A program made the translations under genes and the position numbers. From contig CANOQG010000007.1 in NCBI GenBank assembly GCA_947568835.1, positions 2,728,001 through 2,792,000 on the forward strand: a stretch of 64,000 nucleotides of DNA, written 5' to 3'. The notes under the pieces are model-generated. The model saw only the letters and a list, made by a program, of their open reading frames with translations, had not been told where the DNA came from and made no database searches. Below, one piece after another: positions 1-64,000 of the stretch (the stretch's first letter is position 1; the number at the start of each line of letters is the position of its first letter). This DNA comes from Protonemura montana. Its lineage: Eukaryota; Arthropoda; Insecta; Plecoptera; Nemouridae.

Positions 1-513
1 ACATGGGGCAGGACATGGGGCAGGACATGGGGCAGGACATGGGGTAGGACATGGGGCAGGACATGGGGCAGGACATGGGGCAGGACATAGGGCAGGACAT
101 GGGGCAGGACATGGGGCAGGACATGGAGCAGGACATGGGACATGACATGGGACAGGACATGGGGCAGGACATGGGGCAGGACATGGGGAAGGACATAGGG
201 CAGGACATGGGGCAGGACATGGGGCAGGACATGGGGCAGGACATAGGGCAGGACATGGGGCAGGACATGGGGCAGGACATGGAGCAGGACATGGGGCAGG
301 ACATTGGGCAGGACATGGGACAGGACATGGGGCAGGACATGGGGCAGGACATGGGGCAGGATATGGGGCAGGACATGGGGCAGGACATGAGGCAGGACAT
401 GGGACATGAGGTAAGACATGGAGCAGGACATGGAGCAGGACATGGGACAGGACATGGGGCAGGACATGGGGCAGGACATGGGGCATGACATGGGACATGG
501 GGCAGGACATGGG

Positions 514-548
514 GTGGAACATGGAGCAGAAAATGGGGCACGACATGG
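514..548. repeat. Landmark variant GTGGAACATGGAGC plus GGGGCACGACATGG (25 sites)
   Basis: A three-unit string with several linked changes: GGGGTGGAACAT, GGAGCAGAAAAT and GGGGCACGACAT. It starts at 514, 5699, 10860, 14426, 17027, 18606, 22340, 25044, 26563, 28082, 31852, 33371, 33631, 34885, 38036, 42099 (with GATGG), 43618, 43878, 45132, 48283, 51679, 56422, 58031, 61499 and 63108. It is nearly always preceded by GGGGCATGACAT and a 7-bp unit. It holds one of the few CpG sites of the array (CACGAC). Spacing between sites gives the higher-order periods directly. Confidence 0.95.
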
Positions 549-1227
549 GGCAGGACATAGGGCAGGACATGGGGCAGGACATGGGGCAGGACATGGGGCA
601 GGACATGGGACATGGGGCAAGACATGGGGCAGGACATAGGGCAGGACATGGGGCAGGACATGGGGAAGGACATGGGGCAGGACATGGGGCAGGACATGGG
701 ACATGGGGCAGGACAGGGGGAGGACATGGAGCAGGACATGGGGCAGGACATGGGGCAGGACATGGGGCAGGACATGGGGCAGGACATGGGGCAGGAAATG
801 GGACAGGACAAAGGGCAGGACATGGGGCAGGACATGGGACATGGGGCAGGACATGGGGCAGGACATGGGGCATGACATGGGGCAGGACATGGGACAGGAC
901 ATGGGGCAGGACATGGGGCAGGACATGGGGCAGGACATGGGGCAGGACATGAGGCAGGACATGGGACAGGACATGGGGCAGGACATGGGGCAGGACATGG
1001 GACATGGAGCAGGACATGGGGCAGGACATGGAGCAGGACATGGGGCAGGACATGGGGCAGGACATAAGACAGGACATAGGGCAGGACATGGGGTAGGACA
1101 TGGGGCAGGACATGGGGCAGGACATGGGACATGGGGCAAGACATGGGGCAGGACATGGGGCAGGACATGGGGCAGGACATGGGGCAGGACATGGGGCAGG
1201 ACATGGGGCAGGAAATGGGGCAGGACA

Positions 1228-2105
1228 TAGGGTAGGACATGAGGCAGGACATGGGACAGGACATGGGGCAGGACATGGGGCAGGACATGGGACAGGACAT
1301 AGGGCAGGACATGGGGCAGGACATGGGGCAAAACATGGGGCAGGACATGGGACAGGACATGGGGCAGGACATTGGCCAGGCTATGGGGCAGGACATGGGG
1401 CAGGACATGAGGCTGGACATGGGACATGGGGAAAGACATGGGGCAGGACATGGGGCAGGACATGGGGCAGGACATGGGGCAGGACATGGGACAGGACATA
1501 GGGCAGGACATGGGGCAGGACATGGGGCAGGACATGGGGCAGGACATAGGGAAGGACATGGGGCAGGACATGGGGCAGGACATGGGACAGGACATGGGAC
1601 AGGACATAGGGCAGGACATGGGGCAGGACATGGGGCAGGACATGGGGCAGGACATAGGGCAGGACATGGGGTAGGACATGAGGCAGGACATGGGACAGGT
1701 CATGGGGCAGGACATGGGGCAGGACATGGGACAGGACATAGGGCAGGACATGGGGCAGGACATGGGGCAAAACATGGGGCAGGACATGGGACAGGACATG
1801 GGGCAGGACATTGGCCAGGCTATGGGGCAGGACATGGGGCAGGACATGAGGCAGGACATGGGACATGGGGAAAGACATGGAGCAGGACATGGGGCAGGAC
1901 ATGGGGCAGGACATGGGGCAGGACATGGGACAGGACATAGGGCAGGACATGGGGCAGGACATGGGGCAGGACATGGGGCAGGACATGGGACAGGACATGG
2001 AGCAGGACATGGGGCAGGACATGGGGCAGGACATGGGACAGGACATAGGGAAGGACATGGGGCAGGACATGGGGCAGGACATGGGACAGGACATGGGACA
2101 GGACA
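1228..2105. repeat. 439-bp tandem doubling nested in 5.2-kb copy 1
   Basis: Two adjacent strings are offset by 439 bp (1,228-1,666 and from 1,667). Both start at GGTAGGACATGAGGC and include the ATTGGCCAGGCTATGG landmark (1,371 and 1,810) and the GGGGAAAGACATGG landmark that follows. The length equals 36 twelve-bp units plus one 7-bp unit. The second copy has its own variants, including CAGGTCATGG near 1,699, and the match fades before 2,000. The same doubling is present at 6,413-7,290 in copy 2, so it predates the 5.2-kb duplication. Confidence 0.85.
1371..1386. repeat. Landmark variant ATTGGCCAGGCTATGG (33 sites)
   Basis: A unit pair carrying four linked changes, so it cannot arise often by chance. 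Starts: 1371, 1810, 3533, 6556, 6995, 8718, 12248, 17884, 19463, 20265, 23197, 25901, 27420, 28939, 29741, 32709, 34223, 35742, 36544, 38893, 40126, 42956, 44470, 45989, 46791, 49140, 50373, 52488, 53721, 54978, 59020, 59995 and 63965. Its CTA makes a TAG stop in one - strand frame and ends many long open frames there. A weaker relative, CATAGGGCAGGCTATGG, occurs near 39,838, 50,085 and 53,433. Confidence 0.95.
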
Positions 2106-2318
2106 TAGGGCAGGACATGGGGCAGGACATGGGGCAGGACATAGGGCAGGACATGGGGCAGGACATGGGGCAGGACATGGGGCAGGACATGGGGCAGGAC
2201 ATGAGGCAGGACATTGGACAGGACATGGGGCAAAACATGGGGCAGGACATGGGACTGGACATGGGGCAGGACATGGGGCAGGACATGGGGCAGGACATGG
2301 GGCAGGACATGGGACATG

Positions 2319-2348
2319 AGGCAGGACAGGGGGAGGACATGGAGCGGG
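2319..2348. repeat. 7-bp and 11-bp phase-shifting units with the GAGCGGG CpG variant
   Basis: Here GGACATGGGACATGAGGC holds a 7-bp unit (GGGACAT), followed by GGACAGGGGGAGGACATGG, where one base is lost so that a unit is 11 bp, followed by GGAGCGGGACATGG. This trio is repeated at each sister site (for example near 4,772, 7,502, 9,957, 13,487, 16,089, 21,506, 24,210, 30,243 and 40,630). The 7- and 11-bp units are not multiples of three, so any reading frame shifts at each. GAGCGGG gives a rare CpG. The fixed positions of these short units act as punctuation of the higher-order repeats. Confidence 0.9.
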
Positions 2349-2511
2349 ACATGGGGCAGGACATGGGGCAGGACATGGAGCAGGACATGGGGCAGGAAAT
2401 GGGGCAGGACATGGGACAGGACATAGGGCAGGACATGGGGCAGGACATGAGGCAGGACATAGGGCAGGACATAAGACATAGGGCAGGACAGGGGGAGGAC
2501 ATGGAGCAGGA

Positions 2512-2526
2512 CATGGGGCATTACAT
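2512..2526. repeat. Landmark variant GGGGCATTACATGG (18 sites)
   Basis: A unit with GG to TT change. The TTA lies at 2521, 4978, 7706, 10139, 13693, 16294, 21710, 24414, 31186, 40838, 41433, 51085, 54432, 55689, 57298, 59449, 60706 and 62375. It follows the string CATAAGACATAGGGCAGGAC and the 11-bp unit, and precedes CATAAGACAGG. TTA reads as the stop TAA on the - strand, so it ends the other main class of long - strand open frames. At 57,298 and 62,375 the next unit has CATTGGG, linking those two modules. Confidence 0.95.
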
Positions 2527-5199
2527 GGGGCAGGACATAAGACAGGACATAGGGCAGGACATGGGGCAGGACATGGGGCAGGACATGGGGCAGGACATGG
2601 GACATGGGGCAAGACATGGGGCAGGACATGAGGCAGGACATGGGGCAGGACATGGGGCAGGACATGGGGCAGGACATGGGGTAGGACATGGGGCAGGAAA
2701 TGGGACAGGACAAGGGGCAGGACATGGGGCAGGACATGGGACATGGGGCAGGACATGGGGCAGGACATGGGACATGGGGCAAGACATGGGGCAGGACATA
2801 GGGCAGGACATGGGGCAGGACATGGGGAAGGACATGGGGCAGGACATGGGGCAGGACATGGGACATGGGGCAGGACAGGGGGAGGACATGGAGCAGGACA
2901 TGGGGCAGGACATGGGGCAGGACATGGGGCAGGACATGGGGCAGGACATGGGGCAGGAAATGGGACAGGACAAAGGGCAGGACATGGGGCAGGACATGGG
3001 ACATGGGGCAGGACATGGGGCAGGACATGGGGCATGACATGGGGCAGGACATGGGACAGGACATGGGGCAGGACATGGGGCAGGACATGGGGCAGGACAT
3101 GGGGCAGGACATGAGGCAGGACATGGGACAGGACATGGGGCAGGACATGGGGCAGGACATGGGACATGGAGCAGGACATGGGGCAGGACATGGAGCAGGA
3201 CATGGGGCAGGACATGGGGCAGGACATAAGACAGGACATAGGGCAGGACATGGGGTAGGACATGGGGCAGGACATGGGGCAGGACATGGGACATGGGGCA
3301 AGACATGGGGCAGGACATGGGGCAGGACATGGGGCAGGACATGGGGCAGGACATGGGGCAGGACATGGGGCAGGAAATGGGGCAGGACATAGGGTAGGAC
3401 ATGAGGCAGGACATGGGACAGGACATGGGGCAGGACATGGGGCAGGACATGGGACAGGACATAGGGCAGGACATGGGGCAGGACATGGGGCAAAACATGG
3501 GGCAGGACATGGGACAACACATGGGGCAGGACATTGGCCAGGCTATGGCGCAGGACATGGGGCAGGACATGAGGCAGGACATGGGACATGGGGAAAGACA
3601 TGGGGCAGGACATGGGGCAGGACATGGGGCAGGACATGGGGCAGGACATGGGACAGGACATAGGGCAGGACATGGGGCAGGACATGGGGCAGGACATGGG
3701 GCAGGATATGGGACAGGACATGGAGCAGGACATGGGGCAGGACATGGGGCAGGACATGGGACAGGACATAGGGAAGGACATGGGGCAGGACATGGGGCAG
3801 GACATGGGACAGGACATGGGACAGGACATAGGGCAGGACATGGGGCAGGACATGGGGCAGGACATAGGGCAGGACATGGGGCAGGACATGGGGCAGGACA
3901 TGGGGCAGGACATGGGGCAGGACATAAGGCAGGACATTGGACAGGACATGGGGCAAAACATGGGGCAGGACATGGGACAGGACATGGGGCAGGACATGGG
4001 GCAGGACATGGGGCAGGACATGGGGCAGGACATGGGACATGAGGCAGGACAGGGGGAGGACATGGAGCGGGACATGGGGCAGGACATGGGGCAGGACATG
4101 GAGCAGGACATGGGGCAGGAAATGGGGCAGGACATGGGACAGGACATAGGGCAGGACATGGGGCAGGACATGAGGCAAGACATGGGGCAGGACATGGGAT
4201 ATAGGGCAGGACAGGGGAAGGACATGGAGCAGGACATGGGGCAGGACATGGGGCAGGACATAAGACAGGACATAGGGCAGGACATGGGGTAGGACATGGG
4301 GCAGGACATGGGGCAGGACATGGGACATGGGGCAAGACATGGGGCAGGACATGGGGCAGGACATGGGGCAGGACATGGGGCAGGACATGGGGCAGGACAT
4401 GGGACATGGGGCAGGACATGGGGCAGGACATGGGGCAGGACATGGGACAGGACATGGAGCAGGACATGGGGCAGGACATGGGGCAGGACATGGGACAGGA
4501 CATAGGGAAGGACATGGGGCAGGACATGGGGCAGGACATGGGACAGGACATGGGACAGGACATAGGGCAGGACATGGGGCAGGACATGGGGCAGGACATA
4601 GGGCAGGACATGGGGCAGGACATGGGGCAGGACATGGGGCAGGACATGGGGCAGGACATGAGGCAGGACATTGGACAGGACATGGGGCAAAACATGGGGC
4701 AGGACATGGGACTGGACATGGGGCAGGACATGGGGCAGGACATGGGGCAGGACATGGGGCAGGACATGGGACATGAGGCAGGACAGGGGGAGGACATGGA
4801 GCGGGACATGGGGCAGGACATGGGGCAGGACATGGAGCAGGACATGGGGCAGGAAATGGGGCAGGACATGGGACAGGACATAGGGCAGGACATGGGGCAG
4901 GACATGAGGCAGGACATAGGGCAGGACATAAGACATAGGGCAGGACAGGGGGAGGACATGGAGCAGGACATGGGGCATTACATGGGGCAGGACATAAGAC
5001 AGGACATAGGGCAGGACATGGGGCAGGACATGGGGCAGGACATGGGGCAGGACATGGGACATGGGGCAAGACATGGGGCAGGACATGAGGCAGGACATGG
5101 GGCAGGACATGGGGCAGGACATGGGGCAGGACATGGGGTAGGACATGGGGCAGGAAATGGGACAGGACAAGGGGCAGGACATGGGGCAGGACATGGGAC

Positions 5200-5283
5200 A
5201 TGGGGCAGGACATGGGGCAGGACATGGGGCAGGACATGGGGCAGGACATGGGGCAGGACATGGGGCAGGACATGGGGCAGGAC
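5200..5283. repeat. Reference run of seven perfect 12-bp consensus units
   Basis: This stretch is seven successive copies of the consensus unit without a change, written in the phase ATGGGGCAGGAC. It is one of the longest perfect runs in the window and serves as a reference for the founding monomer. The same run recurs at the equivalent place in sister copies, for example from 10,361, 13,915, 16,516 and 55,911. It is followed by an ATAGGG variant that starts the next conserved variant string. Confidence 0.97.
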
Positions 5284-8200
5284 ATAGGGCAGGACATGGG
5301 GCAGGACATGGGGCAGGACATGGAGCAGGACATGGGACATGACATGGGACAGGACATGGGGCAGGACATGGGGAAGGACATAGGGCAGGACATGGGGCAG
5401 GACATGGGGCAGGACATGGGGCAGGACATAGGGCAGGACATGGGGCAGGACATGGGGCAGGACATGGAGCAGGACATGGGGCAGGACATTGGGCAGGACA
5501 TGGGACAGGACATGGGGCAGGACATGGGGCAGGACATGGGGCAGGATATGGGGCAGGACATGGGGCAGGACATGAGGCAGGACATGGGACATGAGGTAAG
5601 ACATGGAGCAGGACATGGAGCAGGACATGGGACAGGACATGGGGCAGGACATGGGGCAGGACATGGGGCATGACATGGGACATGGGGCAGGACATGGGGT
5701 GGAACATGGAGCAGAAAATGGGGCACGACATGGGGCAGGACATAGGGCAGGACATGGGGCAGGACATGGGGCAGGACATGGGGCAGGACATGGGACATGG
5801 GGCAAGACATGGGGCAGGACATAGGGCAGGACATGGGGCAGGACATGGGGAAGGACATGGGGCAGGACATGGGGCAGGACATGGGACATGGGGCAGGACA
5901 GGGGGAGGACATGGAGCAGGACATGGGGCAGGACATGGGGCAGGACATGGGGCAGGACATGGGGCAGGACATGGGGCAGGAAATGGGACAGGACAAAGGG
6001 CAGGACATGGGGCAGGACATGGGACATGGGGCAGGACATGGGGCAGGACATGGGGCATGACATGGGGCAGGACATGGGACAGGACATGGGGCAGGACATG
6101 GGGCAGGACATGGGGCAGGACATGGGGCAGGACATGAGGCAGGACATGGGACAGGACATGGGGCAGGACATGGGGCAGGACATGGGACATGGAGCAGGAC
6201 ATGGGGCAGGACATGGAGCAGGACATGGGGCAGGACATGGGGCAGGACATAAGACAGGACATAGGGCAGGACATGGGGTAGGACATGGGGCAGGACATGG
6301 GGCAGGACATGGGACATGGGGCAAGACATGGGGCAGGACATGGGGCAGGACATGGGGCAGGACATGGGGCAGGACATGGGGCAGGACATGGGGCAGGAAA
6401 TGGGGCAGGACATAGGGTAGGACATGAGGCAGGACATGGGACAGGACATGGGGCAGGACATGGGGCAGGACATGGGACAGGACATAGGGCAGGACATGGG
6501 GCAGGACATGGGGCAAAACATGGGGCAGGACATGGGACAGGACATGGGGCAGGACATTGGCCAGGCTATGGGGCAGGACATGGGGCAGGACATGAGGCAG
6601 GACATGGGACATGGGGAAAGACATGGGGCAGGACATGGGGCAGGACATGGGGCAGGACATGGGGCAGGACATGGGACAGGACATAGGGCAGGACATGGGG
6701 CAGGACATGGGGCAGGACATGGGGCAGGACATAGGGAAGGACATGGGGCAGGACATGGGGCAGGACATGGGACAGGACATGGGACAGGACATAGGGCAGG
6801 ACATGGGGCAGGACATGGGGCAGGACATGGGGCAGGACATAGGGCAGGACATGGGGTAGGACATGAGGCAGGACATGGGACAGGTCATGGGGCAGGACAT
6901 GGGGCAGGACATGGGACAGGACATAGGGCAGGACATGGGGCAGGACATGGGGCAAAACATGGGGCAGGACATGGGACAGGACATGGGGCAGGACATTGGC
7001 CAGGCTATGGGGCAGGACATGGGGCAGGACATGAGGCAGGACATGGGACATGGGGAAAGACATGGAGCAGGACATGGGGCAGGACATGGGGCAGGACATG
7101 GGGCAGGACATGGGACAGGACATAGGGCAGGACATGGGGCAGGACATGGGGCAGGACATGGGGCAGGACATGGGACAGGACATGGAGCAGGACATGGGGC
7201 AGGACATGGGGCAGGACATGGGACAGGACATAGGGAAGGACATGGGGCAGGACATGGGGCAGGACATGGGACAGGACATGGGACAGGACATAGGGCAGGA
7301 CATGGGGCAGGACATGGGGCAGGACATAGGGCAGGACATGGGGCAGGACATGGGGCAGGACATGGGGCAGGACATGGGGCAGGACATGAGGCAGGACATT
7401 GGACAGGACATGGGGCAAAACATGGGGCAGGACATGGGACTGGACATGGGGCAGGACATGGGGCAGGACATGGGGCAGGACATGGGGCAGGACATGGGAC
7501 ATGAGGCAGGACAGGGGGAGGACATGGAGCGGGACATGGGGCAGGACATGGGGCAGGACATGGAGCAGGACATGGGGCAGGAAATGGGGCAGGACATGGG
7601 ACAGGACATAGGGCAGGACATGGGGCAGGACATGAGGCAGGACATAGGGCAGGACATAAGACATAGGGCAGGACAGGGGGAGGACATGGAGCAGGACATG
7701 GGGCATTACATGGGGCAGGACATAAGACAGGACATAGGGCAGGACATGGGGCAGGACATGGGGCAGGACATGGGGCAGGACATGGGACATGGGGCAAGAC
7801 ATGGGGCAGGACATGAGGCAGGACATGGGGCAGGACATGGGGCAGGACATGGGGCAGGACATGGGGTAGGACATGGGGCAGGAAATGGGACAGGACAAGG
7901 GGCAGGACATGGGGCAGGACATGGGACATGGGGCAGGACATGGGGCAGGACATGGGACATGGGGCAAGACATGGGGCAGGACATAGGGCAGGACATGGGG
8001 CAGGACATGGGGAAGGACATGGGGCAGGACATGGGGCAGGACATGGGACATGGGGCAGGACAGGGGGAGGACATGGAGCAGGACATGGGGCAGGACATGG
8101 GGCAGGACATGGGGCAGGACATGGGGCAGGACATGGGGCAGGAAATGGGACAGGACAAAGGGCAGGACATGGGGCAGGACATGGGACATGGGGCAGGACA

Positions 8201-10444
8201 TGGGGCAGGACATGGGGCATGACATGGGGCAGGACATGGGACAGGACATGGGGCAGGACATGGGGCAGGACATGGGGCAGGACATGGGGCAGGACATGAG
8301 GCAGGACATGGGACAGGACATGGGGCAGGACATGGGGCAGGACATGGGACATGGAGCAGGACATGGGGCAGGACATGGAGCAGGACATGGGGCAGGACAT
8401 GGGGCAGGACATAAGACAGGACATAGGGCAGGACATGGGGTAGGACATGGGGCAGGACATGGGGCAGGACATGGGACATGGGGCAAGACATGGGGCAGGA
8501 CATGGGGCAGGACATGGGGCAGGACATGGGGCAGGACATGGGGCAGGACATGGGGCAGGAAATGGGGCAGGACATAGGGTAGGACATGAGGCAGGACATG
8601 GGACAGGACATGGGGCAGGACATGGGGCAGGACATGGGACAGGACATAGGGCAGGACATGGGGCAGGACATGGGGCAAAACATGGGGCAGGACATGGGAC
8701 AACACATGGGGCAGGACATTGGCCAGGCTATGGGGCAGGACATGGGGCAGGACATGAGGCAGGACATGGGACATGGGGAAAGACATGGGGCAGGACATGG
8801 GGCAGGACATGGGGCAGGACATGGGGCAGGACATGGGACAGGACATAGGGCAGGACATGGGGCAGGACATGGGGCAGGACATGGGGCAGGATATGGGACA
8901 GGACATGGAGCAGGACATGGGGCAGGACATGGGGCAGGACATGGGACAGGACATAGTGAAGGACATGGGGCAGGACATGGGGCAGGACATGGGACAGGAC
9001 ATGGGACAGGACATAGGGCAGGACATGGGGCAGGACATGGGGCAGGACATAGGGCAGGACATGGGGCAGGACATGGGGCAGGACATGGGGCAGGACATGG
9101 GGCAGGACATAAGGCAGGACATTGGACAGGACATGGGGCAAAACATGGGGCAGGACATGGGACAGGACATGGGGCAGGACATGGGGCAGGACATGGGGCA
9201 GGACATGGGGCAGGACATGGGACATGAGGCAGGACAGGGGGAGGACATGGAGCGGGACATGGGGCAGGACATGGGGCAGGACATGGAGCAGGACATGGGG
9301 CAGGAAATGGGGCAGGACATGGGACAGGACATAGGGCAGGACATGGGGCAGGACATGAGGCAAGACATGGGGCAGGACATGGGATATAGGGCAGGACAGG
9401 GGAAGGACATGGAGCAGGACATGGGGCAGGACATGGGGCAGGACATAAGACAGGACATAGGGCAGGACATGGGGTAGGACATGGGGCAGGACATGGGGCA
9501 GGACATGGGACATGGGGCAAGACATGGGGCAGGACATGGGGCAGGACATGGGGCAGGACATGGGGCAGGACATGGGGCAGGACATGGGACATGGGGCAGG
9601 ACATGGGGCAGGACATGGGGCAGGACATGGGACAGGACATGGAGCAGGACATGGGGCAGGACATGGGGCAGGACATGGGACAGGACATAGGGAAGGACAT
9701 GGGGCAGGACATGGGGCAGGACATGGGACAGGACATGGGACAGGACATAGGGCAGGACATGGGGCAGGACATGGGGCAGGACATAGGGCAGGACATGGGG
9801 CAGGACATGGGGCAGGACATGGGGCAGGACATGGGGCAGGACATGAGGCAGGACATTGGACAGGACATGGGGCAAAACATGGGGCAGGACATGGGACTGG
9901 ACATGGGGCAGGACATGGGGCAGGACATGGGGCAGGACATGGGGCAGGACATGGGACATGAGGCAGGACAGGGGGAGGACATGGAGCGGGACATGGGGCA
10001 GGACATGGGGCAGGACATGGAGCAGGACATGGGGCAGGAAATGGGGCAGGACATGGGACAGGACATAGGGCAGGACATAGGGCAGGACATAAGACATAGG
10101 GCAGGACAGGGGGAGGACATGGAGCAGGACATGGGGCATTACATGGGGCAGGACATAAGACAGGACATAGGGCAGGACATGGGGCAGGACATGGGGCAGG
10201 ACATGGGGCAGGACATGGGACATGGGGCAAGACATGGGGCAGGACATGAGGCAGGACATGGGGCAGGACATGGGGCAGGACATGGGGCAGGACATGGGGT
10301 AGGACATGGGGCAGGAAATGGGACAGGACAAGGGGCAGGACATGGGGCAGGACATGGGACATGGGGCAGGACATGGGGCAGGACATGGGGCAGGACATGG
10401 GGCAGGACATGGGGCAGGACATGGGGCAGGACATGGGGCAGGAC
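5284..10444. repeat. 5.2-kb higher-order repeat, copy 2
   Basis: Directly adjacent to copy 1 and colinear with it at an offset of 5,185 bp up to about 10,065. There it lacks two units (24 bp) present in copy 1 near 4,890, so later landmarks are offset by 5,161. Differences from copy 1 are scattered single bases (for example ATAGTGAAGG near 8,953 where copy 1 has ATAGGGAAGG) and whole-unit gains or losses. That makes this an older duplication than the 10.2-kb one further right. Confidence 0.88.
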
Positions 10445-11524
10445 ATAGGGCAGGACATGGGGCAGGACATGGGGCAGGACATGGAGCAGGACATGGGACA
10501 TGACATGGGACAGGACATGGGGCAGGACATGGGGAAGGACATAGGGCAGGACATGGGGCAGGACATGGGGCAGGACATGGGGCAGGACATAGGGCAGGAC
10601 ATGGGGCAGGACATGGGGCAGGACATGGAGCAGGACATGGGGCAGGACATTGGGCAGGACATGGGACAGGACATGGGGCAGGACATGGGGCAGGACATGG
10701 GGCAGGATATGGGGCAGGACATGGGGCAGGACATGAGGCAGGACATGGGACATGAGGTAAGACATGGAGCAGGACATGGAGCAGGACATGGGACAGGACA
10801 TGGGGCAGGACATGGGGCAGGACATGGGGCATGACATGGGACATGGGGCAGGACATGGGGTGGAACATGGAGCAGAAAATGGGGCACGACATGGGGCAGG
10901 ACATAGGGCAGGACATGGGGCAGGACATGGGGCAGGACATGGGGCAGGACATGGGACATGGGGCAAGACATGGGGCAGGACATAGGGCAGGACATGGGGC
11001 AGGACATGGGGAAGGACATGGGGCAGGACATGGGGCAGGACATGGGACATGGGGCAGGACAGGGGGAGGACATGGAGCAGGACATGGGGCAGGACATGGG
11101 GCAGGACATGGGGCAGGACATGGGGCAGGAAATGGGACAGGACAAAGGGCAGGACATGGGGCAGGACATGGGACATGGGGCAGGACATGGGGCAGGACAT
11201 GGGGCATGACATGGGGCAGGACATGGGACAGGACATGGGGCAGAACATGGGGCAGGACATGGGGCAGGACATGGGGCAGGACATGAGGCAGGACATGGGA
11301 CAGGACATGGGGCAGGACATGGGGCAGGACATGGGACATGGAGCAGGACATGGGGCAGGACATGGAGCAGGACATGGGGCAGGACATGGGGCAGGACATA
11401 AGACAGGACATAGGGCAGGACATGGGGTAGGACATGGGGCAGGACATGGGGCAGGACATGGGACATGGGGCAAGACATGGGGCAGGACATGGGGCAGGAC
11501 ATGGGGCAGGACATGGGGCAGGAC
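10445..11524. repeat. 5.2-kb higher-order repeat, partial copy 3
   Basis: Continues the 5.2-kb string with the same landmarks in order (ATGAGGTAAGACATGG near 10,752; GTGGAACATGGAGC at 10,860). One 12-bp unit is missing near 11,120, and a private C-GAACATGG change is present near 11,243. The string is cut short where a local 543-bp doubling begins. Beyond about 11,970 the sequence matches the second half of copy 2 (offset 3,530), so the register of the higher-order repeat jumps here. Confidence 0.8.
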
Positions 11525-12067
11525 ATAGGGCAGGACATGGGGCAGGACATGGGGAAGGACATGGGGCAGGACATGGGGCAGGACATGGGACATGGGGCAG
11601 GACAGGGGGAGGACATGGAGCAGGACATGGGGCAGGACATGGGGCAGGACATGGGGCAGGACATGGGGCAGGAAATGGGACAGGACAAAGGGCAGGACAT
11701 GGGGCAGGACATGGGACATGGGGCAGGACATGGGGCAGGACATGGGGCATGACATGGGGCAGGACATGGGACAGGACATGGGGCAGAACATGGGGCAGGA
11801 CATGGGGCAGGACATGGGGCAGGACATGAGGCAGGACATGGGACAGGACATGGGGCAGGACATGGGGCAGGACATGGGACATGGAGCAGGACATGGGGCA
11901 GGACATGGAGCAGGACATGGGGCAGGACATGGGGCAGGACATAAGACAGGACATAGGGCAGGACATGGGGTAGGACATGGGGCAGGACATGGGGCAGGAC
12001 ATGGGACATGGGGCAAGACATGGGGCAGGACATGGGGCAGGACATGGGGCAGGACATGGGGCAGGAC
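10982..12067. repeat. 543-bp tandem doubling
   Basis: The string 10,982-11,524 is repeated at 11,525-12,067. Both carry the same private change, GGGGCAGAACATGG (near 11,243 and 11,786), and the same loss of a 12-bp unit relative to sister segments elsewhere. Shared private changes show that the doubling is local and later than those changes. It adds one extra interval to the array between copies of the common string. Confidence 0.88.
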
Positions 12068-20375: not shown

Positions 20376-20719
20376 GGACATGGGACAGGACATAGGGCAG
20401 GACATGGGGCAGGACATGGGGCAGGACATGGGGCAGGACATGGGACAGGACATGGAGCAGGACATGGGGCAGGACATGGGGCAGGACATGGGACAGGACA
20501 TAGGGAAGGACATGGGGCAGGACATGGGGCAGGACATGGGACAGGACATGGGACAGGACATAGGGCAGGACATGGGTCAGGACATGGGGCAGGACATAGG
20601 GCAGGACATGGGGCAGGACATGGGGCAGGACATGGGGCAGGACATGGGGCAGGACATAAGGCAGGACATTGGACAGGACATGGGGCAAAACATGGGGCAG
20701 GACATGGGACAGGACATGG

Positions 20720-51354: not shown

Positions 51355-54300
51355 AGGACATAGGGCAGGACATGGGGCAGGACATGGGGCAGGACATGGG
51401 GCAGGACATAGGGCAGGACATGGGGCAGGACATGGGGCAGGACATGGAGCAGGACATGGGGCAGGACATTGGGCAGGACATGGGACAGGACATGGGGCAG
51501 GACATGGGGCAGGACATGGGGCAGGATATGGGGCAGGACATGGGGCAGGACATGAGGCAGGACATGGGACATGAGGTAAGACATGGAGCAGGACATGGAG
51601 CAGGACATGGGACAGGACATGGGGCAGGACATGGGGCAGGACATGGGGAATGACATGGGACATGGGGCAGGACATGGGGTGGAACATGGAGCAGAAAATG
51701 GGGCACGACATGGGGTAGGACATAGGGCAGGACATGGGGCAGGACATGGGGCAGGACATGGGGCAGGACATGGGACATGGGGCAAGACATGGGGCAGGAC
51801 ATAGGGCAGGACATGGGGCAGGACATGGGGAAGGACATGGGGCAGGACATGGGGCAGGACATGGGACATGGGGCAGGACAGGGGGAGGACATGGAGCAGG
51901 ACATGGGGCAGGACATGGGGCAGGACATGGGGCAGGACATGGGGCAGGACATGGGGCAGGAAATGGGACAGGACAAAGGGCAGGACATGGGGCAGGACAT
52001 GGGACATGGGGCAGGACATGGGGCAGGACATGGGGCATGACATGGGGCAGGACATGGGACAGGACATGGGGCAGGACATGGGGCAGGACATGGGGCAGGA
52101 CATGGGGCAGGACATGGGACATGGAGCAGGACATGGGGCAGGACATGGAGCAGGACATGGGGCAGGACATGGGGCAGGACATAAGACAGGACATAGGGCA
52201 GGACATGGGGTAGGACATGGGGCAGGACATGGGGCAGGACATGGGACATGGGGCAAGACATGGGGCAGGACATGGGGCAGGACATGGGGCAGGACATGGG
52301 GCAGGACATGGGGCAGGACATGGGGCAGGAAATGGGGCAGGACATAGGGTAGGACATGAGGCAGGACATGGGACAGGACATGGGGCAGGACATGGGGCAG
52401 GACATGGGACAGGACATAGGGCAGGACATGGGGCAGGACATGGGGCAAAACATGGGGCAGGACATGGGACAGGACATGGGGCAGGACATTGGCCAGGCTA
52501 TGGGGCAGGACATGGGGCAGGACATGAGGCAGGACATGGGACATGGGGAAAGACATGGGGCAGGACATGGGGCAGGACATGGGGCAGGACATGGGGCAGG
52601 ACATGGGACAGGACATAGGGCAGGACATGGGGCAGGACATGGGGCAGGACATGGGGCAGGACATGGGACAGGACATGGAGCAGGACATGGGGCAGGACAT
52701 GGGGCAGGACATGGGACAGGACATAGGGAAGGACATGGGGCAGGACATGGGGCAGGACATGGGACAGGACATGGGACAGGACATAGGGCAGGACATGGGG
52801 CAGGACATGGGGCAGGACATAGGGCAGGACATGGGGCAGGACATGGGGCAGGACATGGGGCAGGACATGGGGCAGGACATAAGGCAGGACATTGGACAGG
52901 ACATGGGGCAAAACATGGGGCAGGACATGGGACAGGACATGTTGCAGGACATGGGGCAGGACATGGGGCAGGACATGGGGCAGGACATGGGACATGAGGC
53001 AGGACAGGGGGAGGACATGGAGCGGGACATGGGGCAGGACATGGGGCAGGACATGGAGCAGGACATGGGGCAGGAAATGGGGCAGGACATGGGACAGGAC
53101 ATAGGGCAGGACATGGGGCAGGACATGAGGCAAGACATGGGGCAGGACATGGGACATAGGGCAGGACAGGGGAAGGACATGGAGCAGGACATGGGGCAGG
53201 ACATGGGGCAGGACATAAGACAGGACATAGGGCAGGACATGGGGTAGGACATGGGGCAGGACATGGGGCAGGACATGGGACATGGGGCAAGACATGGGGC
53301 AGGACATGGGGCAGGACATGGGGCAGGACATGGGGCAGGACATGGGGCAGGACATGGGACATGGGGCAGGACATGGGGCAGGACATGGGGCAGGACATGG
53401 GGCAGGACATGGGGCAGGACATGGGGCAGGACATAGGGCAGGCTATGGGGCAGGACATGGGGCAGGACATGGAGCAGGACATGGGACATGACATGGGACA
53501 GGACATGGGGCAGGACATGGCGCAGGACATGGGGCAGGACATGGGGCAGGACATGGGGCAGGACATAGGGCAGGACATGGGGTAGGACATGAGGCAGGAC
53601 ATGGGACAGGACATGGGGCAGGACATGGGGCAGGACATGGGACAGGACATAGGGCAGGACATGGGGCAGGACATGGGGCAAAACATGGGGCAGGACATGG
53701 GACAGGACATGGGGCAGGAAATTGGCCAGGCTATGGGGCAGGACATGGGGCAGGACATGAGGCAGGACATGGGACATGGGGAAAGACATGGGGCAGGACA
53801 TGGGGCAGGACATGGGGCAGGACATGGGGCAGGACATGGGACAGGACATAGGGCAGGACATGGGGCAGGACATGGGGCAGGACATGGGGCAGGACATGGG
53901 ACAGGACATGGAGCAGGACATGGGGCAGGACATGGGGCAGGACATGGGACAGGACATAGGGAAGGACATGGGGCAGGACATGGGGCAGGACATGGGACAG
54001 GACATTGCACAGGACATAGGGCAGGACATGGGGCAGGACATGGGGCAGGACATAGGGCAGGACATGGGGCAGGACATGGGGCAGGACATGGGGCAGGACA
54101 TGGGGCAGGACATGAGGCAGGACATTGGACAGGACATGGGGCAAAACATGGGGCAGGACATGGGACTGGACATGGGGCAGGACATGGGGCAGGACATGGG
54201 GCAGGACATGGGGCAGGACATGGGACATGAGGCAGGACAGGGGGAGGACATGGAGCGGGACATGGGGCAGGACATGGGGCAGGACATGGAGCAGGACATG

Positions 54301-54590
54301 GGGCAGGAAATGGGGCAGGACATGAAACAGGACATAGGGCAGGACATGGGGCAGGACATGAGGCAGGACATGGGGCAGGACATAAGACATAGGGCAGGAC
54401 AGGGGGAGGACATGGAGCAGGACATGGGGCATTACATGGGGCAGGACATAAGACAGGACATAGGGCAGGACATGGGGCAGGACATGGGGCAGGACATGGG
54501 GCAGGACATGGGACATGGGGCAAGACATGGGGCAGGACATGAGGCAGGACATGGGGCAGGACATGGGGCAGGACATGGGGCAGGACATGG
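47855..54590. repeat. 3.4-kb tandem doubling
   Basis: From CATAGGGCAGG units at 47,855 and 51,251 the string repeats with an offset of 3,396 bp. A 48-bp loss near 52,110 lowers it to 3,348, as seen at ATTGGCCAGG 49,140/52,488 and 50,373/53,721. A one-base difference in the CATGAAACAGG string (four A near 50,975, three A near 54,324) then gives 3,347. Rare CATGTTGCAGG is in both copies (near 49,591 and 52,939). Copy 2 has private changes GGGGAATGACATGG (near 51,646) and GGAAATTGGCC (near 53,718). Confidence 0.86.
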
Positions 54591-57500
54591 GGTAGGACAT
54601 GGGGCAGGAAATGGGACAGGACAAGGGGCAGGACATGGGGCAGGACAAGGGACATGGGGCAGGACATGGGGCAGGACATGGGGCAGGACATGGGGCAGGA
54701 CATGGGGCAGGACATGGGGCAGGACATGGGGCAGGACATAGGGCAGGACATGGGGCAGGACATGGGGCAGGACATGGAGCAGGACATGGGACATGACATG
54801 GGACAGGACATGGGGCAGGACATGGGGCAGGACATGGGGAAGGACATAGGGCAGGACATGGGGCAGGACATGGGGCAGGACATGGGGCAGGACATGGGAC
54901 AGGACATAGGGCAGGACATGGGGCAGGACAGGGAGCAGGACATGGGGCAGGACATGGGACAGGACATGGGGCAGGACATTGGCCAGGCTATGGGGCAGGA
55001 CATGGGGCAGGACATGAGGCAGGACATGGGACATGGGGAAAGACATGGGGCAGGACATGGGGCAGGACATGGGGCAGGACATGGGGCAGGACATGGGACA
55101 GGACATAGGGCAGGACATGGGGCAGGACATGGGGCAGGACATGGGGCAGGACATGGGACAGGACATGGAGCAGTACATGGTGCAGGACATGGGGCAGGAC
55201 ATGGGACAGGACATAGGGAAGGACATGGGGCAGGACATGGGGCAGGACATGGGACAGGACATTGCACAGGACATAGGGCAGGACATGGGGCAGGACATGG
55301 GGCAGGACAAAGGGCAGGACATGGGGCAGGACATGGGGCAGGACATGGGGCAGGACATGGGGCAGGACATGAGGCAGGACATTGGACAGGACATGGGGCA
55401 AAACATGGGGCAGGACATGGGACTGGACATGGGGCAGGACATGGGGCAGGACATGGGGCAGGACATGGGGCAGGACATGGGACATGAGGCAGGACAGGGG
55501 GAGGACATGGAGCGGGACATGGGGCAGGACATGGGGCAGGACATGGAGCAGGACATGGGGCAGGAAATGGGGCAGGACATGAAACAGGACATAGGGCAGG
55601 ACATGGGGCAGGACATGAGGCAGGACATGGGGCAGGACATAAGACATAGGGCAGGACAGGGGGAGGACAAGGAGCAGGACATGGGGCATTACATGGGGCA
55701 GGACATAAGACAGGACATAGGGCAGGACATGGGGCAGGACATGGGGCAGGACATGGGGCAGGACATGGGACATGGGGCAAGACATGGGGCAGGACATGAG
55801 GCAGGACATGGGGCAGGACATGGGGCAGGACATGGGGCAGGACATGGGGTAGGACATGGGGCAGGAAATGGGACAGGACAAGGGGCAGGACATGGGGCAG
55901 GACATGGGACATGGGGCAGGACATGGGGCAGGACATGGGGCAGGACATGGGGCAGGACATGGGGCAGGACATGGGGCAGGACATGGGGCAGGACATAGGG
56001 CAGGACATGGGGCAGGACATGGGGCAGGACATGGAGCAGGACATGGGACATGACATGGGACAGGACATGGGGCAGGACATGGGGCAGGACATGGGGAAGG
56101 ACATAGGGCAGGACATGGGGCAGGACATGGGGCAGGACATGGGGCAGGACATAGGGCAGGACATGGGGCAGGACATGGGGCAGGACAGGGAGCAGGACAT
56201 GGGGCAGGACATTGGGCAGGACATGGGACAGGACATGGGGCAGGACATGGGGCAGGACATGGGGCAGGATATGGGGCAGGACATGGGGCAGGACATGAGG
56301 CAGGACATGGGACATGAGGTAAGACATGGGGCAGGACATGGAGCAGGACATGGGACAGGACATGGGGCAGGACATGGGGCAGGACATGGGGCATGACATG
56401 GGACATGGGGCAGGACATGGGGTGGAACATGGAGCAGAAAATGGGGCACGACATGGGGCAGGACATAGGGCAGGACATGGTGCAGGACATGGGGCAGGAC
56501 ATGGGGCAGGACATGGGACATGGGGCAAGACATGGGGCAGGACATAGGGCAGGACATGGGGCAGGACATGGGGCAGGACATAAGACAGGACATAGGGCAG
56601 GACATGGGGTAGGACATGGGGCAGGACATGGGGCAGGACATGGGACATGGGGCAAGACATGGGGCAGGACATGGGGCAGGACATGGGGCAGGACATGGGG
56701 CAGGACATGGGGCAGGACATGGGACATGGGGCAGGACATGGGGCAGGACATGGGGCAGGACATGGGACAGGACATGGAGCAGGACATGGGGCAGGACATG
56801 GGGCAGGACATGGGACAGGACATAGGGAAGGACATGGGGCAGGACATGGGGCAGGACATGGGACAGGACATGGGACAGGACATAGGGCAGGACATGGGGC
56901 AGGACATGGGGCAGGACATAGGGCAGGACATGGGGCAGGACATGGGGCAGGACATGGGGCAGGACATGGGGCAGGACATGAGGCAGGACATTGGACAGGA
57001 CATGGGGCAAAACATGGGGCAGGACATGGGACTGGACATGGGGCAGGACATGGGGCAGGACATGGGGCAGGACATGGGGCAGGACATGGGACATGAGGCA
57101 GGACAGGGGGAGGACATGGAGCGGGACATGGGGCAGGACATGGGGCAGGACATGGAGCAGGACATGGGGCAGGAAATGGGGCAGGACATGGGACAGGACA
57201 TAGGGCAGGACATGGGGCAGGACATGAGGCAGGACATAGGGCAGGACATAAGACATAGGGCAGGACAGGGGGAGGACATGGAGCAGGACATGGGGCATTA
57301 CATTGGGCAGGACATAAGACAGGACATAGGGCAGGACATGGGGCAGGACATGGGGCAGGACATGGGGCAGGACATGGGACATGGGGCAAGACATGGGGCA
57401 GGACATGAGGCAGGACATGGGGCAGGACATGGGGCAGGACATGGGGCAGGACATGGGGTAGGACATGGGGCAGGAAATGGGACAGGACAAGGGGCAGGAC

Positions 57501-59286
57501 ATGGGGCAGGACATGGGACATGGGGCAGGACATGGGGCAGGACATGGGGCAGGACATGGGGCAGGACATGGGGCAGGACATGGGGCAGGACATGGGGCAG
57601 GACATGGGGAAGGACATAGGGCAGGACATGGGGCAGGACATGGAGCAGGACATGGGACATGACATGGGACAGGACATGGGGCAGGACATGGGGCAGGACA
57701 TGGGGAAGGACATAGGGCAGGACATGGGGCAGGACATGGGGCAGGACATGGGGCAGGACATAGGGCAGGACATGGGGCAGGACATGGGGCAGGACATGGA
57801 GCAGGACATGGGGCAGGACATTGGGCAGGACATGGGACAGGACATGGGGCAGGACATGGGGCAGGACATGGGGCAGGATATGGGGCAGGACATGGGGCAG
57901 GACATGAGGCAGGACATGGGACATGAGGTAAGACATGGAGCAGGACATGGAGCAGGACATGGGACAGGTCATGGGGCAGGACATGGGGCAGGACATGGGG
58001 CATGACATGGGACATGGGGCAGGACATGGGGTGGAACATGGAGCAGAAAATGGGGCACGACATGGGGCAGGACATAGGGCAGGACATGGGGCAGGACATG
58101 GGGCAGGACATGGGGCAGGACATGGGACATGGGGCAAGACATGGGGCAGGACATAGGGCAGGACATGGGGCAGGACATGGGGAAGGACATGGGGCAGGAC
58201 ATGGGGCAGGACATGGGACATGGGGCAGGACAGGGGGAGGACATGGAGCAGGACATGGGGCAGGACATGGGGCAGGACATGGGGCAGGACATGGGGCAGG
58301 ACATGGGGCAGGAAATGGGACAGGACAAAGGGCAGGACATGGGGCAGGACATGGGACATGGGGCAGGACATGGGGCAGGACATGGGGCATGACATGGGGC
58401 AGGACATGGGACAGGACATGGGGCAGGACATGGGGCAGGACATGGGGCAGGACATGGGGCAGGACATGAGGCAGGACATGGGACAGGACATGGGGCAGGA
58501 CATGGGGCAGGACATGGGACATGGAGCAGGACATGGGGCAGGACATGGAGCAGGACATGGGGCAGGACATGGGGCAGGACATAAGACAGGACATAGGGCA
58601 GGACATGGGGTAGGACATGGGGCAGGACATGGGGCAGGACATGGGACATGGGGCAAGACATGGGGCAGGACATGGGGCAGGACATGGGGCAGGACATGGG
58701 GCAGGACATGGGGCAGGACATGGGGCAGGAAATGGGGCAGGACATAGGGTAGGACATGAGGCAGGACATGGGACAGGACATGGGGCAGGACATGGGACAG
58801 GACATGGGGCAGGACATGGCGCAGGACATGGGGCAGGACATGGGGCAGGACATGGGGCAGGACATAGGGCAGGACATGGGGTAGGACATGAGGCAGGACA
58901 TGGGACAGGACATGGGGCAGGACATGGGGCAGGACATGGGACAGGACATAGGGCAGGACATGGGGCAGGACATGGGGCAAAACATGGGGCAGGACATGGG
59001 ACAGGACATGGGGCAGGACATTGGCCAGGCTATGGGGCAGGACATGGGGCAGGACATGAGGCAGGACATGGGACATGGGGAAAGACATGGGGCAGGACAT
59101 GGGGCAGGACATGGGGCAGGACATGGGGCAGGACATGGGACAGGACATAGGGCAGGACATGGGGCAGGACATGGGGCAGGACATGGGGCAGGACATGGGA
59201 CAGGACATTGCACAGGACATAGGGCAGGACATGGGGCAGGACATGGGGCAGGACATAGGGCAGGACATGGGGCAGGACATGGGGCA
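54270..59286. repeat. 5,017-bp duplication, copy 1
   Basis: Landmarks repeat with an offset of 5,017 bp: CATGAAACAGG (near 54,322 and 59,339), CATTACATGG (54,432 and 59,449; 55,689 and 60,706) and ATTGGCCAGG (54,978 and 59,995). Both copies share the region-specific change GGACAGGGAGCAGG. Copy 1 includes a string of about 132 bp near 58,790-58,920, with GGCGCAGG, that copy 2 lacks. Private changes here include GGAGCAGTACATGG near 55,170. Confidence 0.87.
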
Positions 59287-62200
59287 GGACATGGGGCAGG
59301 ACATGGAGCAGGACATGGGGCAGGAAATGGGGCAGGACATGAAACAGGACATAGGGCAGGACATGGGGCAGGACATGAGGCAGGACATGGGGCAGGACAT
59401 AAGACATAGGGCAGGACAGGGGGAGGACATGGAGCAGGACATGGGGCATTACATGGGGCAGGACATAAGACAGGACATAGGGCAGGACATGGGGCAGGAC
59501 ATGGGGCAGGACATGGGGCAGGACATGGGACATGGGGCAAGACATGGGGCAGGACATGAGGCAGGACATGGGGCAGGACATGGGGCAGGACATGGGGCAG
59601 GACATGGGGTAGGACATGGGGCAGGAAATGGGACAGGACAAGGGGCAGGACATGGGGCAGGACATGGGACATGGGGCAGGACATGGGGCAGGACATGGGG
59701 CAGGACATGGGGCAGGACATGGGGCAGGACATGGGGCAGGACATGGGGCAGGACATAGGGCAGGACATGGGGCAGGACATGGGGCAGGACATGGAGCAGG
59801 ACATGGGACATGACATGGGACAGGACATGGGGCAGGACATGGGGCAGGACATGGGGAAGGACATAGGGCAGGACATGGGGCAGGACATGGGGCAGGACAT
59901 GGGGCAGGACATGGGACAGGACATAGGGCAGGACATGGGGCAGGACAGGGAGCAGGACATGGGGCAGGACATGGGACAGGACATGGGGCAGGACATTGGC
60001 CAGGCTATGGGGCAGGACATGGGGCAGGACATGAGGCAGGACATGGGACATGGGGAAAGACATGGGGCAGGACATGGGGCAGGACATGGGGCAGGACATG
60101 GGGCAGGACATGGGACAGGACATAGGGCAGGACATGGGGCAGGACATGGGGCAGGACATGGGGCAGGACATGGGACAGGACATGGAGCAGGACATGGGGC
60201 AGGACATGGGGCAGGACATGGGACAGGACATAGGGAAGGACATGGGGCAGGACATGGGGCAGGACATGGGACAGGACATTGCACAGGACATAGGGCAGGA
60301 CATGGGGCAGGACATGGGGCAGGACAAAGGGCAGGACATGGGGCAGGACATGGGGCAGGACATGGGGCAGGACATGGGGCAGGACATGAGGCAGGACATT
60401 GGACAGGACATGGGGCAAAACATGGGGCAGGACATGGGACTGGACATGGGGCAGGACATGGGGCAGGACATGGGGCAGGACATGGGGCAGGACATGGGAC
60501 ATGAGGCAGGACAGGGGGAGGACATGGAGCGGGACATGGGGCAGGACATGGGGCAGGACATGGAGCAGGACATGGGGCAGGAAATGGGGCAGGACATGAA
60601 ACAGGACATAGGGCAGGACATGGGGCAGGACATGAGGCAGGACATGGGGCAGGACATAAGACATAGGGCAGGACAGGGGGAGGACAAGGAGCAGGACATG
60701 GGGCATTACATGGGGCAGGACATAAGACAGGACATAGGGCAGGACATGGGGCAGGACATGGGGCAGGACATGGGGCAGGACATGGGACATGGGGCAAGAC
60801 ATGGGGCAGGACATGAGGCAGGACATGGGGCAGGACATGGGGCAGGACATGGGGCAGGACATGGGGTAGGACATGGGGCAGGAAATGGGACAGGACAAGG
60901 GGCAGGACATGGGGCAGGACATGGGACATGGGGCAGGACATGGGGCAGGACATGGGGCAGGACATGGGGCAGGACATGGGGCAGGACATGGGGCAGGACA
61001 TGGGGCAGGACATAGGGCAGGACATGGGGCAGGACATGGGGCAGGACATGGAGCAGGACATGGGACATGACATGGGACAGGACATGGGGCAGGACATGGG
61101 GCAGGACATGGGGAAGGACATAGGGCAGGACATGGGGCAGGACATGGGGCAGGACATGGGGCAGGACATAGGGCAGGACATGGGGCAGGACATGGGGCAG
61201 GACAGGGAGCAGGACATGGGGCAGGACATTGGGCAGGACATGGGACAGGACATGGGGCAGGACAGGGAGCAGGACATGGGGCAGGACATTGGGCAGGACA
61301 TGGGACAGGACATGGGGCAGGACATGGGGCAGGACATGGGGCAGGATATGGGGCAGGACATGGGGCAGGACATGAGGCAGGACATGGGACATGAGGTAAG
61401 ACATGGGGCAGGACATGGAGCAGGACATGGGACAGGACATGGGGCAGGACATGGGGCAGGACATGGGGCATGACATGGGACATGGGGCAGGACATGGGGT
61501 GGAACATGGAGCAGAAAATGGGGCACGACATGGGGCAGGACATAGGGCAGGACATGGTGCAGGACATGGGGCAGGACATGGGGCAGGACATGGGACATGG
61601 GGCAAGACATGGGGCAGGACATAGGGCAGGACATGGGGCAGGACATGGGGCAGGACATAAGACAGGACATAGGGCAGGACATGGGGTAGGACATGGGGCA
61701 GGACATGGGGCAGGACATGGGACATGGGGCAAGACATGGGGCAGGACATGGGGCAGGACATGGGGCAGGACATGGGGCAGGACATGGGGCAGGACATGGG
61801 ACATGGGGCAGGACATGGGGCAGGACATGGGGCAGGACATGGGACAGGACATGGAGCAGGACATGGGGCAGGACATGGGGCAGGACATGGGACAGGACAT
61901 AGGGAAGGACATGGGGCAGGACATGGGGCAGGACATGGGACAGGACATGGGACAGGACATAGGGCAGGACATGGGGCAGGACATGGGGCAGGACATAGGG
62001 CAGGACATGGGGCAGGACATGGGGCAGGACATGGGGCAGGACATGGGGCAGGACATGAGGCAGGACATTGGACAGGACATGGGGCAAAACATGGGGCAGG
62101 ACATGGGACTGGACATGGGGCAGGACATGGGGCAGGACATGGGGCAGGACATGGGGCAGGACATGGGACATGAGGCAGGACAGGGGGAGGACATGGAGCG

Positions 62201-64000
62201 GGACATGGGGCAGGACATGGGGCAGGACATGGAGCAGGACATGGGGCAGGAAATGGGGCAGGACATGGGACAGGACATAGGGCAGGACATGGGGCAGGAC
62301 ATGAGGCAGGACATAGGGCAGGACATAAGACATAGGGCAGGACAGGGGGAGGACATGGAGCAGGACATGGGGCATTACATTGGGCAGGACATAAGACAGG
62401 ACATAGGGCAGGACATGGGGCAGGACATGGGGCAGGACATGGGGCAGGACATGGGACATGGGGCAAGACATGGGGCAGGACATGAGGCAGGACATGGGGC
62501 AGGACATGGGGCAGGACATGGGGCAGGACATGGGGTAGGACATGGGGCAGGAAATGGGACAGGACAAGGGGCAGGACATGGGGCAGGACATGGGACATGG
62601 GGCAGGACATGGGGCAGGACATGGGGCAGGACATGGGGCAGGACATGGGGCAGGACATGGGGCAGGACATGGGGCAGGACATGGGGAAGGACATAGGGCA
62701 GGACATGGGGCAGGACATGGAGCAGGACATGGGACATGACATGGGACAGGACATGGGGCAGGACATGGGGCAGGACATGGGGAAGGACATAGGGCAGGAC
62801 ATGGGGCAGGACATGGGGCAGGACATGGGGCAGGACATAGGGCAGGACATGGGGCAGGACATGGGGCAGGACATGGAGCAGGACATGGGGCAGGACATTG
62901 GGCAGGACATGGGACAGGACATGGGGCAGGACATGGGGCAGGACATGGGGCAGGATATGGGGCAGGACATGGGGCAGGACATGAGGCAGGACATGGGACA
63001 TGAGGTAAGACATGGAGCAGGACATGGAGCAGGACATGGGACAGGACATGGGGCAGGACATGGGGCAGGACATGGGGCATGACATGGGACATGGGGCAGG
63101 ACATGGGGTGGAACATGGAGCAGAAAATGGGGCACGACATGGGGCAGGACATAGGGCAGGACATGGGGCAGGACATGGGGCAGGACATGGGGCAGGACAT
63201 GGGACATGGGGCAAGACATGGGGCAGGACATAGGGCAGGACATGGGGCAGGACATGGGGAAGGACATGGGGCAGGACATGTGGCAGGACATGGGACATGG
63301 GGCAGGACAGGGGGAGGACATGGAGCAGGACATGGGGCAGGACATGGGGCAGGACATGGGGCAGGACATGGGGCAGGACATGGGGCAGGAAATGGGACAG
63401 GACAAAGGGCAGGACATGGGGCAGGACATGGGACATGGGGCAGGACATGGGGCAGGACATGGGGCATGACATGGGGCAGGACATGGGACAGGACATGGGG
63501 CAGGACATGGGGCAGGACATGGGGCAGGACATGGGGCAGGACATGAGGCAGGACATGGGACAGGACATGGGGCAGGACATGGGGCAGGACATGGGACATG
63601 GAGCAGGACATGGGGCAGGACATGGAGCAGGACATGGGGCAGGACATGGGGCAGGACATAAGACAGGACATAGGGCAGGACATGGGGTAGGACATGGGGC
63701 AGGACATGGGGCAGGACATGGGACATGGGGCAAGACATGGGGCAGGACATGGGGCAGGACATGGGGCAGGACATGGGGCAGGACATGGGGCAGGACATGG
63801 GGCAGGAAATGGGGCAGGACATAGGGTAGGACATGAGGCAGGACATGGGACAGGACATGGGGCAGGACATGGGGCAGGACATGGGACAGGACATAGGGCA
63901 GGACATGGGGCAGGACATGGGGCAAAACATGGGGCAGGACATGGGACAGGACATGGGGCAGGACATTGGCCAGGCTATGGGGCAGGACATGGGGCAGGAC
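59287..64000. repeat. 5,017-bp duplication, copy 2 (cut by window end)
   Basis: Follows copy 1 at an offset of 5,017 bp to 61,260, then 5,077 bp because of an extra 60-bp doubling, then 4,945 bp after the 132-bp string of copy 1 is skipped near 63,870 (ATTGGCCAGG at 59,020 and 63,965). A rare CATTACATTGGG string is shared (57,298 and 62,375). The copy is still running at the last base of the window. Confidence 0.86.
61201..61320. repeat. Exact 60-bp tandem doubling
   Basis: Bases 61,201-61,260 and 61,261-61,320 are identical, each being five units starting GACAGGGAGCAGG and containing ACATTGGGCAGG. The sister copy of this place (near 56,184) holds the string once. With no differences and no sister, this is one of the youngest visible changes in the array, at the level of slippage of a few units. 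Confidence 0.97.

Follow-up and report, generated by a model that had tools for sequence, protein, structure and literature searches.

The window analysed here, a single stretch of 64,000 bp, is occupied from end to end by one satellite array with the 12-bp unit ACATGGGGCAGG, and the large-scale order of this array is best explained, with a probability of about 0.7, by repeated adjacent duplication through unequal exchange in register or an equivalent process based on replication. The array belongs to the general kind of short-unit satellite DNA with higher-order repeats. Its units follow one another head to tail and vary more (95.0% phased identity to the consensus) than the higher-order copies built from them, which differ at 6 sites over 10,247 bp and at none over 1,519 bp.

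1-64000, plus strand (the G-rich strand): uninterrupted satellite array with unit ACATGGGGCAGG, cut by both ends of the window

Tandem Repeats Finder (TRF) returns a single row for positions 1-64000, with period 12, 5,479.2 copies and consensus ACATGGGGCAGG. A phase-tracking parse divides all 64,000 bp into 5,482 units, 2,780 of them identical to the consensus, and distinguishes 70 types. Unit lengths are restricted to 12 bp (5,057 units), 7 bp (333) and 11 bp (87), and the remaining five pieces of odd length represent one 13-bp unit, split by the parser and present twice, and a unit cut at the window end. This 13-bp unit, the sole full unit outside the three lengths, is found at 40725-40737 and 50972-50984, once in each copy of the 10,247-bp duplication described below. 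The 7-bp units are mostly ACATGGG, five bases short of a full unit, and their most frequent spacings are 91, 127, 126, 115, 163, 162, 138, 295 and 451 bp. As the 7-bp and 11-bp units shift the phase, the length of a module may depart from a multiple of 12. No 60-bp stretch falls below 83% phased identity, and the array is therefore taken to contain no insert, in agreement with an earlier reading made from the sequence only, which had described at least 64 kb of continuous 12-bp satellite without unique sequence or mobile elements. The parse follows a single strand throughout the window; on the plus strand one forward 10-mer occurs 2,896 times and one reverse-complement 10-mer not at all.

The order of the units is far from random. 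Distinct words of 20 units number 1,666. Ten shuffles contain 5,463 on average, as do 10 first-order Markov copies, and 10 second-order copies contain 5,462. A Lempel-Ziv parse requires 190 phrases, whereas a single unit shuffle takes 1,238, a single first-order Markov copy 1,008 and a single third-order copy 610. Pairs of exact 150-mers are found at offsets of 439 bp (34 pairs), 543 (411), 802 (2,550), 1,519 (3,202), 1,579 (723), 2,601 (1,768), 2,704 (2,100), 3,396 (338), 5,017 (1,534), 5,185 (4,130) and 10,247 bp (9,205). In the random-offset control, a segment of at least 300 bp at the same threshold was encountered in 2.3% of 600 offsets. The sequence-only reading had listed 13 periods and proposed tandem-repeat decomposition as a check; this decomposition gives period 12 across the window, and the exact 150-bp matches support 11 of the 13. 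The other two fare less well. Offset 260 has no exact 150-bp match (120 pairs at 60 bp), and 60 bp is simply five units, identity dropping steadily from 0.865 to 0.707 over offsets 12, 24, 36, 48, 60 and 72 with no peak at 60. The same 60 bp separates 1,519 from 1,579 bp and 5,017 from 5,077 bp. Offsets of similar weight were missing from that list, for example 1,514, 5,077, 6,803, 8,017, 9,476, 17,050 and 26,526 bp.

Many of these offsets correspond to pairs of copies that lie side by side on the plus strand:

30864-41110, plus strand: first copy of a 10,247-bp tandem duplication, with 6 substitutions and no indel relative to the second
41111-51357, plus strand: second copy of the 10,247-bp duplication, adjoining the first
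24747-27784, plus strand: two identical adjacent 1,519-bp copies of module A (24747-26265 and 26266-27784; 0 mismatches), the match extending into a partial third copy
20738-26145, plus strand: 2,704-bp tandem pair whose second copy begins at 23442, with 5 mismatches in 2,704 bp
11-10105, plus strand: nearly complete 5,185-bp pair (11-4920 against 5196-10105; 4,910 bp at 99.57%)
12477-17529, plus strand: nearly complete 2,601-bp pair (12477-14928 against 15078-17529; 2,452 bp at 99.14%)
54234-63966, plus strand: 5,017/5,077-bp pair (54234-56318 at offset 5,017, 56049-58889 at offset 5,077)
28238-29841, plus strand: 802-bp tandem pair, copies identical
10968-12053, plus strand: 543-bp tandem pair, copies identical

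Two more 802-bp pairs begin at 45288, with identical copies, and at 18762, with one mismatch, and there is a run at offset 802 at 34987-35885. Offsets 5,017 and 5,077 are read as one pair carrying an indel of five units. Counted in units, the matched run and the offset are 878 and 878 for the 10,247-bp duplication, 231 and 232 for 2,704 bp, 70 and 69 for 802 bp (in three places), and 48 and 47 for 543 bp, while at 1,519 bp the values are 239 and 130, which denotes more than two copies. Run length about equal to offset marks the copies at several of the main offsets as adjacent. Compared over the full offset, the 1,579-bp pair has 203 mismatches, the 5,185-bp pair 98 and the 2,601-bp pair 126; the 5,185-bp pair, however, shows only 3 differences before about 4,890. 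Both this pair and the 10,247-bp pair look recent, with about 0.06% substitutions where aligned, and an earlier proposal of the 10,247-bp duplication as the youngest was given up, since the 5,185-bp pair has the same rate of difference.

The limits of the 10,247-bp pair are marked by a fall in similarity on both sides, with 14 mismatches in 164 bp leftward and 56 in 190 bp rightward. Within it, identity at the offset is exact over 6,283 bp, as might be expected if part of the large-scale order were an assembly artefact, produced by false duplication or by misjoining of near-identical reads, and the 12-bp satellite of Drosophila subobscura is described, in the portion of PMC6795482 that deals with it, as largely collapsed in another long-read assembly. 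The 10,247-bp copies nevertheless differ at 6 scattered sites, and the smaller modules recur in many contexts, beyond what one misjoin makes. An artefact is accordingly held to be improbable.

Besides the adjacent copies, the window contains recurring modules. The 1,519-bp block of module A at 24747-26265 (130 units), compared with the whole window, gives 20 matches that span 27,133 bp in total, with a unit identity of 88-100% and scores of 202-371 against a best match of 18-22 in each of three shuffled windows. In a greedy module map, which hinges on the reference copies that the script picked, A accounts for 22 pieces (27,943 bp), B for 21 pieces (21,505 bp) and C for 6 pieces (6,060 bp), and 8,492 bp are unassigned.

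59837-61129, plus strand: reference copy of module B
18393-19665, plus strand: reference copy of module C, which is closely related to A

The alignment of C to A scores 285.7, where 200 shuffles reach at most 20.0. A more distant likeness links A with B (65.4; shuffles up to 21.0) and B with C (38.4; shuffles up to 18.9), and may point to a common block that is older still. In the same alignment test a repeat of 69 units (802 bp) inside C is marginal, 20.5 against 19.8, although the 802-bp tandem pairs themselves are clear. The module families of about 1.5 kb (A) and about 1 kb (B) alternate, and the start spacing of B pieces longer than 800 bp is 2,493-2,704 bp in 7 of 18 intervals, 981 bp in two and 3.1-6.7 kb in nine. 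From these spacings A-B is taken to be the base higher-order repeat, with a common length of 2.5-2.7 kb. The re-use of modules in new combinations, noted in the sequence-only reading, is borne out. Its nested levels contain a real order, but the many levels are read better as one A-B repeat with adjacent duplications of about 0.5-10 kb. The unit, the module map, the adjacent copies, their near identity and the restricted unit lengths are all direct observations on the window.

The favoured explanation proposes the following course. The 12-bp unit would have spread and gathered a limited set of variants, runs of which may have become modules A and B; these would have been joined into a repeat about 2.5-2.7 kb long, after which blocks of one to several A-B repeats would have undergone further duplication. 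The duplications would have been driven by unequal sister-chromatid exchange or by homology-directed replication such as break-induced replication. We infer this exchange mechanism, the acting pathway and the order of events from the pattern of copies. In-register exchange is a process modelled by Smith, according to the summary given in part of a review (PMC8122249). With unit lengths limited to 12, 7 and 11 bp and the one 13-bp exception, joins that ignore the phase must be rare. Seven of the 10 pairs inspected are complete, with 0-6 mismatches over the full offset, and have units of regular length on both sides of the junction. These regular junction units, together with the restricted unit lengths, point to a homology-directed, in-register exchange.

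The history of the array was also approached by collapse, in which one copy of each adjacent pair is removed in turn, with a strict rule, which demands a matched run of 95% of the offset or more, and a relaxed one, which demands 60%. Under the relaxed rule the array shrinks from 5,482 to 566 units in 19 steps; under the strict rule it ends at 3,853 units after 8 steps. Simulated arrays grown by pure tandem duplication end at 460-544 units under the relaxed rule (four of four runs) and arrays grown by dispersed copying without indels at 2,545-3,566 (four of four), while shuffled arrays show no collapse in four of four. A second set of simulations, with shuffled 600-unit seeds and small indels, comprised six runs for each of four types (24 runs). 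Relaxed medians in this set are 2,839 units for tandem growth with indels, 3,180.5 for tandem growth with indels and deletions, 4,289.5 for half-dispersed and 4,712.5 for dispersed copying, the last two ending at 3,917-4,689 and 3,842-5,239 units respectively (six of six runs each). The observed 566 units fit almost indel-free tandem growth and nothing else among the simulated models.

The modules could also have been made by rolling-circle amplification of excised circles and their reinsertion into the array, a process proposed for satellites in print (PMC8122249, in the part of that review concerned with it). Such a process yields both tandem copies and distant re-use of modules, as with C at 18393 and at about 27.9 kb. 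Adjacent collapses alone, however, reach 566 units, which simulated dispersed copying does not, the simulations having covered dispersed insertion. Rolling-circle growth is judged unlikely.

Several points weigh against repeated adjacent duplication by in-register exchange. The strict end point of 3,853 units reflects fewer collapses than in pure tandem simulations (1,307-1,700); it lies between these and dispersed copying (4,880-5,433), and below all 24 runs of the indel set (lowest 3,866). Under the relaxed rule some unmatched spacer is lost as well: 4,069 of the 4,916 removed units lie in matched runs. The seeds and event sizes of the pure tandem and dispersed simulations were taken from the data, and their end point is partly built in. 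Tandem growth with indels or deletions ends at 2,150-3,775 units (12 of 12 runs), overlapping dispersed copying without indels. The collapse measure therefore separates mechanisms only given few indels and is not a clean test. The junction is fixed in only 7 of the 10 inspected pairs, and in none of the 1,579-, 5,185- and 2,601-bp pairs, and the parser sets every cut at a unit boundary. Finally, rolling-circle products reinserted nearby would look alike.

In composition the array has a G+C content of about 62% and a steady GC skew of 0.48-0.50. CpG is nearly absent, with 61 occurrences against 4,705 expected from base counts and none in the consensus; despite its G+C content the array offers few targets for CpG methylation. 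The commonest change in the units is G>A. Position 3 is A in all units long enough to include it, and the other 11 positions vary. Constraint on position 3 was considered and dropped, because A/T positions rarely change and only 70 unit types exist; the invariance is possibly due to chance together with low mutability of A and T.

A repeat under selection for coding or for structure, with long minus-strand frames, G-rich hairpins or quadruplexes, is regarded as very improbable. The longest stop-free frame on the minus strand has 4,849 codons, and the unit length is divisible by 3, but among 100 unit shuffles 43 contain a minus frame of that length or more, and on the plus strand the longest frame, 433, falls short of the mean of 640 in shuffles. 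The long minus frames were put down to composition, and protein coding was rejected. As to structure, the mean G4Hunter score is 1.24 against 0.89 in one mononucleotide shuffle, and 422 quadruplex-like matches appear with loops of as many as 12; with loops restricted to 1-7, however, the window contains no quadruplex motif. Six of six DNA folds of 120 nt, from three places and both strands, fall within their shuffles (z from -0.13 to 1.04), and secondary structure was likewise rejected, as none of them clearly beats its shuffles.

Judged by the kind of DNA, the array would be a satellite of eukaryotic type, and presumably both eukaryotic and heterochromatic. It is doubtful, as a more specific proposal, that it represents an undescribed centromeric or pericentromeric satellite with an A-B higher-order repeat of about 2.5-2.7 kb (about 220 twelve-bp units) and very recently duplicated blocks of 5-10 kb, its hierarchy being as deep as that of alpha satellite on a unit fourteen times shorter. 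The 12-bp variants serve as bar codes, in which the duplication history of the array is preserved at a resolution of 12 bp; combined with long reads of several individuals, this record could help to separate unequal exchange, break-induced replication and reinsertion of circles. Apart from it, the array is a satellite of an expected kind.

An origin in a prokaryote, phage or plasmid was considered and rejected. The array has no exact 24-mer match in viral or prokaryotic contig collections, and blastn of window positions 1-3000 (3,000 of 64,000 bp) gives no match in plasmids or phages, where the low-complexity filter may hide matches. In open-licence literature, searched with ten-base pieces on both strands and with phrases such as '12-bp satellite', no report of ACATGGGGCAGG was recognisable from titles, abstract openings and hit counts. 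The absence of the 12-mer from these prokaryotic, viral and plasmid collections and from this text means little. Satellites organised like the present array are already known, and its unit was matched to none of those named in the searches made; as far as these searches go, the sequence-only reading, which recognised no named family, holds.

Twelve-bp centromeric satellites and kilobase repeats on very short units are both established. Dodeca is a 12-bp centromeric satellite of Drosophila melanogaster with an 11/12-bp unit (PMC4542561, in the passages on this satellite), and like the present array it has G-rich and C-rich strands and 11-bp beside 12-bp units. Its unit, CCCGTACTCGGT / CCCGTACTGGT, differs by eye from ACATGGGGCAGG, and the array was not placed within dodeca. 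The G strand of dodeca is also described as forming hairpins with G:A pairs, whereas the folds of the present array, computed with a model outside which such pairs lie, are no better than shuffles. The 12-bp satellite of D. subobscura is reported at all centromeres except that of Muller F by fluorescence in situ hybridisation, several Mb being estimated together with a 107-bp satellite (PMC6795482, same portion); it is likened to the present array by unit length alone. Human HSat1A combines a 42-bp unit (PMC10505914) with a 9-mer higher repeat (PMC9909926) and, as far as the relevant sections of these sources go, resembles the array in its nested tandem repeats on a short unit, but has a longer unit and one higher level. 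Human HSat2 and HSat3 derive from (CATTC)n, as stated in the same section of PMC10505914; the present consensus differs from it by eye, and the array was not assigned to either. A likeness in organisation is seen with human DYZ1, the Y-chromosomal satellite III (HSat3), in which TTCCA and its variants make up a 3,564-bp repeat in thousands of copies (PMC3925983), given as 3.6 kb elsewhere (PMC8125562). In both arrays a very short unit with many variants is ordered into a kilobase repeat, and multi-level order on so short a unit was thus too strongly called unusual in the sequence-only reading. The two differ in that DYZ1 has an unrelated 5-bp unit of 40% G+C, against about 62% in the present array, and in that the present array combines its A-B repeat with larger duplications, whereas DYZ1, in the sections of these sources that describe it, shows one unit length.

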